From: Oscillibacter valericigenes
Lineage (GTDB): Bacteria > Bacillota > Clostridia > Oscillospirales > Oscillospiraceae
Reading direction: 5' to 3'
Length of the DNA: 64,000 bases
Assembly (NCBI RefSeq): GCF_021531435.1
Contig: NZ_JAFBIS010000002.1
Coordinates: forward strand, 147,874-211,873
This document shows positions 5,818-33,788 of the stretch, one piece after another. Positions within the stretch are counted from its first letter, which is position 1. The number at the start of each line of letters is the position of its first letter. The notes under the pieces were generated by a model, which saw nothing but the letters and a program-made list of their open reading frames with translations, ran no database searches and had not been told where the DNA came from. The translations under genes and the position numbers were made by a program.

Positions 5818-7257
5818 ATGGCACAGGATAAGAGACAAGTGGACGCCATCACTGCCCGGGACGTGGATTTCGCCCAGTGGTACACCGACGTCTGCAAAAA
5901 AGCCGAGCTGATCGACTATACCTCCGTGAAGGGTATGTTCATCTACCGCCCCTATGGCTACGCCATCTGGGAGAACATCCAGAAGGAGCTGGACAAGCGG
6001 TTCAAGGAGACGGGACATGAGAACGTGTATCTGCCCGTTCTGATCCCCGAGTCCCTGCTCCAGAAGGAGAAGGACCACGTGGAGGGATTTGCCCCTGAGT
6101 GCGCCTGGGTCACCATGGGCGGCAGCGAGAAGCTGGAGGACCGCCTCTGCGTCCGCCCCACCTCCGAGACTCTGTTCTGCGAGCATTACGCTAACATCAT
6201 CCACTCCTGGCGGGACCTGCCCAAGAAGTACAACCAGTGGTGCTCCGTCCTGCGGTGGGAGAAGACCAGCCGTCCTTTCCTGCGCCACCGGGAGTTCCTG
6301 TGGCAGGAGGGCCACACCATGCATGCCACCGAGGAAGAGGCCCGGGAAGAGACCATGCAGATGCTGAACATCTACGCCGACTTCATGGAGAACTTCCTGG
6401 CCATGCCCGTCATCCGGGGCCGCAAGACCGAGAAGGAGAAGTTCAAGGGCGCTGAGGAGACCTACACCGTGGAGTGCATGATGCACGACCACAAGGCTCT
6501 CCAGGCCGGCACCAGCCACTATTTCGGCGACGGCTTTGCCAAGGCCTTCGACATCACCTTCGCCGGCAAGGACAACCAGCCCCACCATCCCCATCAGACG
6601 AGCTGGGGCGTGTCCACCCGCATGATCGGCGGCATCATCATGACCCACGGCGACGACAACGGCCTGGTGCTGCCTCCCCGGGTGGCCCCCATCCAGGCGG
6701 TGGTCATCCCCGTGGCCCAGCACAAGCCCGGCGTTCTGGACGCCGCCGCCGCCCTGCGTGACCGTCTGACCGCGGCGGGTATCCGTGCCAAGATGGACGA
6801 TTCCGACAACTCTCCCGGCTGGAAGTTTGCCGAGTATGAGATGAAGGGCGTGCCCCTGCGGGTGGAGATCGGTCCTAAGGACATGGAGAAGGAGCAGTGC
6901 GTCATCGCCCGCCGGGATACCGGCGAGAAGGTGATGGTGCCTCTGGCGGAGCTGGAGGACAGGGTGGCGGAGCTGCTGGACGCCGTCCACGACAATATGT
7001 ACGCCATGGCGCTGAAGAACCGTGAGGACAACACCTTCGACATCAAGACCCCCGAGGAGGCCAAAGCCATCGCCGACGGCAAGGGCGGCTTCCTGCGGTC
7101 CAAGTGGTGCGGCTCTCTGGAGTGCGAAATGGCCATGAAGGAGCGGGCGGGCGTTTCCTCCCGCTGCATGCCTCTGGCACAGTCCGGCACCGAGGGCGTG
7201 TGCCCCGTGTGCGGCAAGAAGTGCACCACTGATATTTACTGGGGTGTAGCATATTAA
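5818..7257 (+). CDS. proS: prolyl-tRNA synthetase, archaeal/eukaryal (ProS type 3) form
   Basis: 479 aa class II synthetase charging tRNA-Pro. It lacks the insertion domain of the 570-aa bacterial type and has the compact form instead. Motif 2 (RWEKTSRPFLRHREFLWQEG) is around residues 142-161 and motif 3 (GVSTRMIGGIIMTHGDDNGL) around 263-282. Next come the anticodon-binding domain (VVIPVAQHKP onward) and a C-terminal domain rich in cysteines (KWCGSLECE, CMPL, CPVCGKKC) ending GVAY, the terminal Tyr being typical of this form. The ATG at 5818 follows a weak AAGGATT site. A repeated four-hairpin element begins directly after the stop codon. Confidence 0.97.
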   Translation: MAQDKRQVDAITARDVDFAQWYTDVCKKAELIDYTSVKGMFIYRPYGYAIWENIQKELDKRFKETGHENVYLPVLIPESLLQKEKDHVEGFAPECAWVTMGGSEKLEDRLCVRPTSETLFCEHYANIIHSWRDLPKKYNQWCSVLRWEKTSRPFLRHREFLWQEGHTMHATEEEAREETMQMLNIYADFMENFLAMPVIRGRKTEKEKFKGAEETYTVECMMHDHKALQAGTSHYFGDGFAKAFDITFAGKDNQPHHPHQTSWGVSTRMIGGIIMTHGDDNGLVLPPRVAPIQAVVIPVAQHKPGVLDAAAALRDRLTAAGIRAKMDDSDNSPGWKFAEYEMKGVPLRVEIGPKDMEKEQCVIARRDTGEKVMVPLAELEDRVAELLDAVHDNMYAMALKNREDNTFDIKTPEEAKAIADGKGGFLRSKWCGSLECEMAMKERAGVSSRCMPLAQSGTEGVCPVCGKKCTTDIYWGVAY

Positions 7258-7258
7258 A

Positions 7259-7388
7259 GAGGGGACTTCGTCCCCCCCCCTTTAGATTCCCCCTCACCAG
7301 TGAAGCGTTCTTCACTGGTGTCGCCGCCCAAGGCGGCTGGGTCAATGTATTTTTGTCAGGCGCATGTCCTGACAAAAATGATTGAAAT
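7259..7388 (+). repeat. four-hairpin intergenic element, copy A (after proS)
   Basis: Structured stretch starting 2 nt after the proS stop. H1: GGGGAC/GTCCCC at 7261-7275. H2: perfect 11-bp stem 7295-7305/7310-7320 (CACCAGTGAAG, loop CGTT). H3: GCCGCC-CAA-GGCGGC at 7323-7337. H4: perfect 12-bp stem 7349-7360/7368-7379 starting ATTTTTGTCAGG. The conserved tail is TGATTGAAAT (7379-7388). GATTC (7285-7289) can pair with GGGTC (7339-7343), enclosing H2 and H3. The second copy follows secA at 30900-31028 with different stem sequences but the same architecture. H4 has no T-run after it, so it is not an ordinary terminator. Confidence 0.8.
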
Positions 7389-30826: not shown

Positions 30827-30899
30827 TGATCAGACAGAGGAAAGGGGCTAGGGGAAACCTACGGTTTCCCCAGTTCATTCGCCAAAGGCAAATGAAGAA

Positions 30900-31028
30900 A
30901 TTTCAATCATTTTCGCCGCGGCGTGTACGTGGCGAAAATACCTCGACCCGTGCGCCCTTGGGACGCACACACCAGTGGCCAATGTCACTGGTGGTGGGGG
31001 AGGTCGAGGGGGAGCCTGCTCCCCCTCG
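30900..31028 (-). repeat. four-hairpin intergenic element, copy B (after secA)
   Basis: Read on the minus strand it begins about 7 nt after the secA stop. H1: GAGGGGGAG/CTCCCCCTC at 31028-31005. H2: CACCAGTG/CACTGGTG at 30993-30970. H3: GTGCGTCC-CAA-GGGCGCAC at 30968-30950 with one G-U pair. H4: ATTTTCGCC/GGCGAAAAT at 30939-30909. The tail is TGATTGAAAT ending at 30900. CTCGACC (31008-31002) can pair with GGTCGAG (30948-30942), enclosing H2 and H3. Layout, the CAA loop of H3, the CCCCC and GGGTC linkers, GTATTTT and the tail match copy A at 7259-7388, while H1, H3 and H4 stems differ and still pair. Confidence 0.8.
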
Positions 31029-31034
31029 AAAGCG

Positions 31035-33788
<2,754 letters not shown>

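Follow-up and report, generated by a model that had tools for sequence, protein, structure and literature searches.

The two structured stretches located behind proS and secA in the window, the whole 64,000-nucleotide stretch of the Oscillibacter valericigenes genome analysed here, belong to a family of dispersed DNA repeats that carry no gene and have so far been left undescribed. The elements of this family usually start at stop codons and were probably spread by an IS1182-family transposase recognising the shape of a DNA hairpin and not its sequence. The preferred hairpin target is likely to be, above all, a transcription terminator. Dispersal, nesting, strand-symmetric pairing and position at stop codons were all observed, and in sister genera so were the duplication of whole hairpins and a transposon that may serve as partner. 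As far as our searches of the literature and of Rfam reach, both the family and this variant of hairpin-targeted transposition are new.

The initial annotation had described four hairpins (H1-H2-H3-H4) followed by a tail, ATGATTGAAAT, in one order after each of the two genes, and both copies were indeed located, in gene sense. Their positions were retained and their bounds were shifted: H1 of copy A starts at 7256, inside the proS stop codon TAA (7255-7257), and copy B, which begins 4 nt past the secA stop codon (31035-31037), runs beyond 30900 and ends near 30844 after two additional hairpins (H5 and H6). H5 and H6 are absent from copy A, whose genome match is G000:C22:155128-155261. The features of both copies are as follows.

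7256 to 7388, plus strand: copy A, which consists of the core alone (H1-H2-H3-H4 and tail), covariance-model match with E = 7.3e-25
7256 to 7283, plus strand: H1 of copy A, AAAG.GGGGAC TTC GTCCCC..CTTT
7295 to 7320, plus strand: H2 of copy A, with arms CACCAGTGAAG and CTTCACTGGTG
7323 to 7337, plus strand: H3 of copy A, GCCGCC CAA GGCGGC
7349 to 7388, plus strand: H4 of copy A with the tail GATTGAAAT; conserved 7-nt loop CGCATGT (YRCAYGY type)
30844 to 31030, minus strand: copy B, full length (core, H5 and H6), genome match G000:C22:178773-178904
30902 to 31030, minus strand: H1-H4 core and tail of copy B
30874 to 30896, minus strand: H5 of copy B, TTCATTTGCC TTT GGCGAATGAA; H5 also recurs in other genera
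30848 to 30873, minus strand: H6 of copy B, CTGGGGAAACC GTA GGTTTCCCCTAG

At the far end of copy B, repeat matches extend to query positions 563-568, which corresponds to about 30838 in the window. The tail ATGATTGAAAT has exactly two exact occurrences within the 64-kb window; with at most one mismatch it occurs six times against 0.69 expected, and none of 100 shuffles reached six. No T-run follows H4, in agreement with the earlier description, and none follows H1 in copies A and B. An S10-Clostridia ribosomal protein leader (Rfam RF03136; 7514-7584, plus strand) lies just downstream of copy A and served as RNA control.

A covariance model built from 18 copies of the own genome (R1) produced 28 matches in that genome at E ≤ 4.5e-13, a count that leaves out a further 22 weak matches (E 2e-4 to 0.84), and BLAST of the same genome yielded about 20 further copies, some of them partial. 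At E ≤ 0.001, R1 matched 28 of 60 relatives, namely G042, from another family, and 27 of 37 genus genomes, one of which (G019) enters by a single weak match only. The covariance-model search for further copies that had been proposed with the annotation thus gave a positive answer. Copy numbers reach at most 31 per genus genome, and the repeat unit is 130-190 nt long. With a stricter pattern, 37 named stretches were retrieved, all from Oscillibacter, Dysosmobacter or unnamed Oscillospiraceae or Clostridia. The expectation that no Rfam family would fit was borne out: apart from the S10 leader, only matches well below gathering score (E up to 5) were obtained. A description of this Oscillibacter repeat was found neither in Rfam nor in the literature searched, outside which most subscription journals lay. 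Two core copies were also present on an IMG/VR contig of 9000 bp classed as viral (L126), which may represent a prophage, host DNA or a carried element.

Position relative to genes was analysed for 89 copies from four own-genus genomes (90 copies minus one too close to a contig end). A same-strand stop codon closing an open stretch of at least 80 codons was found within 9 nt of the element start in 68 of them, orthologous copies being counted apart, against 3-8 of 89 at four upstream control offsets and 8 for antisense stops at the 3' end. Inspection by eye of the remaining 21 copies indicated that in at least 15 of them H1 lies at the stop, a module interrupting H1 or splitting it from H2. 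Some copies were placed, also by eye, between groES and groEL (L336, and L033/L021 of the own genome).

The element is present at the proS and secA sites of some congeners and absent from those of others. Similarly, L034 is filled in G000 and empty in G017, G023 and G060, L054 is filled in G000 and empty in G017 and G023, and, conversely, L236 of G060 and the site shared by L250, L257 and L274 are filled while G000 is empty. Several empty proS sites carry an ordinary terminator directly past the stop codon. When six filled and empty sites were compared by eye, a hairpin followed the stop in the empty copies of proS and L054, secA was mixed, and no hairpin followed the stop at the empty sites of L034, L236 and L250; in this comparison, which bears on hairpin replacement, the flanks are too diverged for the cut to be located. 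Repeats of gene ends were seen in addition. At L161 (G012) and L182 (G009) at secA, and at L257 (G060) and L274 (G023), the 3' end of the upstream gene is repeated downstream of a hairpin module over about 45-70 bp by eye, and at L037 (G000) 26 bp of the gene end, including the stop codon, are repeated directly behind the element.

The weak R1 matches of G042 (best 9.5e-7), a genome originally found by R1 alone, belong to a relative in which the H4 loop, the tail and H5 are the same. A model of this H4-tail-H5 heart (R3, for which 10 rows came from the own genus and 11 from G042) had matches in 28 of 394 genomes of the order, spread over 14 of 168 genera, only 12 candidates being scored per genome; 23 of the positive genomes are from the own family, four from that of G042 and one from a third. 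This interior heart is common to the window copies and the sister-genus elements. The own-type core was also found in genus g42 (L336, G377), whose member G383 carries the hairpin-duplication type described below.

Among 57 sister-genus loci (60 sampled, three dropped at contig edges), the element was flanked in 25 by a direct repeat of 20 or more matched bases, against 5 of 99 control pairs composed of left and right flanks from different loci of one genome. All 25 flanking repeats coincide with a hairpin (median start and end offsets of -1 and 0); 13 of them are identical and the others 79-97% alike. Repeat and hairpin lengths are correlated (0.68), with the hairpin mis-called at L373 and the repeat shifted at L382. 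Since only about half of these duplicated hairpins display a T-run by eye, and terminator status is judged here from shape and place, 'terminator-like' is the fair wording for them. The unit between the repeats measures 160-268 bp and is gene-less. In 18 of the 25 loci it carries AGNNTGTC at both ends with at most one mismatch, the control for a single end at internal positions being 10/500. Every one of the 25 loci has an antisense frame downstream, and at 23 a sense frame also stops within 140 nt on the upstream side, so that these loci seem to sit between convergent genes. Hairpin duplication was not seen at the remaining 32 of the 57 loci, including all 11 of G064. For the own genus, the AGNNTGTC inverted end was found in none of 90 copies from four genomes (60 nt upstream or 260 nt downstream) and a duplicated gene-end hairpin in none of 89, the five repeats listed being coding or gene-end stretches.

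G064 is also the host of L414, a transposon with a 512-codon frame that was assigned to family IS1182 by NCBIfam (385.6 bits for a cut-off of 270) and has the Pfam domains DDE_Tnp_1_6 and DUF772. L414 begins and ends with CAGACTGTCGAA, it has the same end sequence as the sister-genus elements with AGNNTGTC, and it displays the same hairpin duplication: a 32-bp hairpin stands on both sides, its copies differing in their two loop bases. By eye, the left copy lies 7 nt past the stop codon of the upstream gene; the flanking hairpin has no T-run. No match to the R3 heart was found within L414, and the elements are therefore not simple internal deletions of this transposon. The loops of the hairpins flanking L322 and L414 are mutually reverse-complemented (TTTTT/AAAAA and GA/TC, respectively), as if one hairpin had flipped. 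Within the window's genus, G024 contains two copies of a DUF772 transposase whose end AGGCTGTCGAAAAAGTC directly abuts a hairpin, the other ends lying off the contigs. The own genome, with an assembly 97% complete, has no IS1182 match (no PF13751 match, its two DUF772 matches being IS5). Other IS1182-like candidates, L407/L410 and L411, were set aside as partners, no AGNNTGTC ends or hairpin repeats being found for them. Given the inverted ends and the hairpin duplication in sister genera, both shared by L414, the elements there appear to be hairpin-targeting mobile elements, with IS1182-type transposases as their most likely movers.

In the mechanism that we propose, a hairpin is extruded, the transposase would join the element ends to it at both of its feet, and the whole hairpin would then be copied to either side by fill-in repair. 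The branch of the window's genus may have lost or replaced the inverted ends, and insertion there would probably have replaced the gene-end hairpin, as described for IS1272. Because this branch shows neither the ends (0/90) nor the duplication, we infer that IS1182-type enzymes moved the window copies, and in what manner, from the shared heart, the position at stop codons, the hairpins found where certain sites are empty, and the occurrence of such transposons in the genus. With every hairpin a potential target, elements made of hairpins would land in one another's loops, and this would give the nested, arm-swapping structure observed. A bolder formulation, put forward tentatively, is that of a bacterial transposition lineage targeting DNA shape alone, which would cut the two feet of any extruded hairpin, duplicate whole terminators at gene ends and, its products being hairpins too, nest in itself three deep with stems re-perfected as DNA; the window branch would then be the terminator's replacement at the stop codon.

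Nesting itself was apparent from a census of segment lengths, for which 83 of the 90 copies could be parsed, nine of these being without the H2 5' arm. Lengths are close to all-or-none: H4 measures 31-44 or 78 nt, H3 with its linkers 24-28 or 81-83, and H2 20-26 or 62, while H1 with its linker measures 23-45 in most copies, with larger values up to 196. Inserts were located in H4 (7/83), H3 (4/83), H2 (1/74) and H1 or its linker (13/83). When orthologous sites of G017, G023, G060 and G000 are compared, entire modules are present in one genome and missing from another, in the loops of H1, H2, H3 and H4 or in the H1-H2 linker. Hairpin modules are nested inside element loops up to three deep; at L274, module W lies inside module Y, itself inside the core. 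Module X (model R2) has 35 matches in four genomes, many of them outside the element and some in the loops of other palindromes.

The stems of H1, H3 and H4 had been reported to differ between copies A and B yet to remain paired, and this was read as covariation implying selection on structure, as RNA or as single-stranded DNA. Covariation was confirmed on an alignment of 98 matches representing 90 distinct copies: double changes affect 21 of 34 pairs, with 307 such cells against 69 in shuffles and none of 500 shuffles as high, related copies not being independent in these counts. Selection at the RNA level as its main cause was rejected. Stem cells comprised 58 G-U, 54 A-C, 85 other mismatches and 2752 Watson-Crick pairs, the mismatches of H1 being inflated because A-type H1 rows are partly misregistered. 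In contrast, 16 distinct S10 leaders of these genomes gave 48 G-U and no A-C among 317 cells, a control with very similar sequences and with a structure predicted from the alignment of these same leaders, which favours G-U. Outside the stem totals, an A-C mismatch in H4, equivalent to G-T on the other strand, was found in 39 of 74 copies. Since G-U and A-C are about equally frequent, unlike in the RNA leader, pairing looks DNA-level, and the stems probably stay perfect on account of a role of the structure as DNA and not mainly as RNA. Taken by themselves, H2 and H3 have more G-U (16) than A-C (5), so an RNA contribution may exist.

The closing stem (P0) suggested around H2 and H3 (GATTC/GGGTC in copy A, CTCGACC/GGTCGAG in copy B) was abandoned, its own pairings barely beating permuted ones, with 15 of 300 permutations as good or better. 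Folding energies of the core favoured the minus strand in 60 of 77 copies, driven by H4, those of H2 favoured the plus strand in 45 of 82, and strand energies were mixed overall. A cross-genus count of G-U and A-C on alignment A7 (4/50 for H4, 27/7 for H5) was spoiled by register shifts and was left unused. The 7-nt loop of H4 (YRCAYGY), often with an A opposite a C beneath it, is kept across families while the stem varies (A6); judging by this pattern, it looks like a recognition site.

These data bear on three other explanations. It is unlikely that the element is, as one option of the initial annotation had it, a 3'-UTR regulatory RNA, or an intercistronic one, spread by duplication, whose folding after departure of the ribosome from the stop codon would serve mRNA stabilisation or processing. 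The near-equal G-U and A-C counts over all stems, the additional A-C of H4, the S10 leader control (although its predicted structure is biased to G-U and its sequences are closely similar) and the unsupported closing stem all argue against such an RNA, as do presence and absence among sister species and, in sister genera, the inverted ends and hairpin duplications. Moreover, sense is meaningless at 23 of the 25 duplicated loci because they lie between convergent reading frames. Such a role would nevertheless be in agreement with the gene-sense orientation at stop codons in the window's genus, with the copies between groES and groEL, with the conservation of the H4 loop and tail between genera whose stems differ, and with the G-U lean of H2 and H3.

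The annotation's other option, a REP/IS200-type palindromic repeat, was right as to a mobile palindromic repeat but not as to its type. Movement of a REP/RAYT- or IS200/IS605-type single-stranded DNA element by a Y1 transposase would account for hairpin ends, for the duplication unseen in the own genus and for module W, which was inserted after AAGA without clear duplication; Y1 matches were also counted in 15 of 41 genus genomes, and the 10 genomes that R1 did not match have none. It is improbable, however, given that none of 28 Y1 loci has an element or module beside it, that Y1 frames of the own genome are short only (106-139 codons), and that sister-genus elements have inverted ends and long duplications, which to our knowledge Y1 enzymes do not make. 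Least credible of all are ordinary intrinsic terminators of host genes that happen to look alike. H1 does resemble the terminators of certain orthologous proS sites that lack the element (L143, L144), but the unit is a repeat of 130-190 nt, T-runs are missing after H1 and H4 in copies A and B, and some copies lie within an apparent groES-groEL arrangement. The idea of H1 as the host's own terminator was likewise discarded, the type-B hairpin occurring in the window only with copy B; GGGGAC..GTCCCC with at most two mismatches is found there at chance level.

Elements moved through hairpin targeting by IS1182-type enzymes, our preferred reading, can be compared with several known systems. Double-hairpin elements are small mobile palindromic repeats of eukaryotic mitochondrial genomes; we know of no transposase partner for them, and the present family resembles them as a small mobile palindromic repeat but differs by its bacterial host. 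The pneumococcal repeats BOX, RUP and SPRITE are described, in the part of the source cited here, as small, intergenic, co-located and inserting into one another, one of them being terminator-like (PMC10969869). They share with our elements the nesting of small intergenic repeats in each other; however, hosts and families are different and that part of the source reports no whole-hairpin target duplication for them.

IS1272 and TnSha1, members of family IS1182 from staphylococci, are the closest in enzyme and target. According to the cited sections, they insert in hairpins without sequence consensus, their targets include several confirmed terminators, copies near genes lie immediately downstream of them, and all or part of the hairpin is deleted without duplication (PMC4923244, PMC5678879). 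An IS1182-family transposase, hairpin targets and position at gene ends are features in common, whereas the sister-genus elements duplicate the whole hairpin, are gene-less with 160-268 bp, and belong to a family with nested modules. One pathway drawn for such elements (pathway b) has joining at the 5' feet duplicate the whole stem-loop (PMC5678879), and the sister-genus loci look like its outcome. With respect to these sections, hairpin targeting was known from IS1272, and whole-hairpin duplication and deep nesting are additions.

An abundant repeat family of gut Oscillospirales thereby gains a likely mechanism, and the sister-genus loci would represent genomic examples of the stem-loop duplication pathway drawn, in the section cited above, as a model for IS1272. 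Strong stem covariation can arise from DNA-level hairpin dynamics, which calls for caution: some 'new structured RNAs' proposed from covariation alone could be such DNA elements. Duplication of gene-end hairpins is also a testable route by which mobile DNA may rewire the 3' ends of operons.

Another large family of repeats, several hundred bp long and with the motif CCCCCATTTTCTTTTT..AAAAAGAAAATG / GGGCCGTGCACGGTCC, was encountered at L138, L165, L131, L166 and L172. It also lies close behind stop codons and hosts modules X and W, the latter being present at L166 and absent from L172 of a sister genome.
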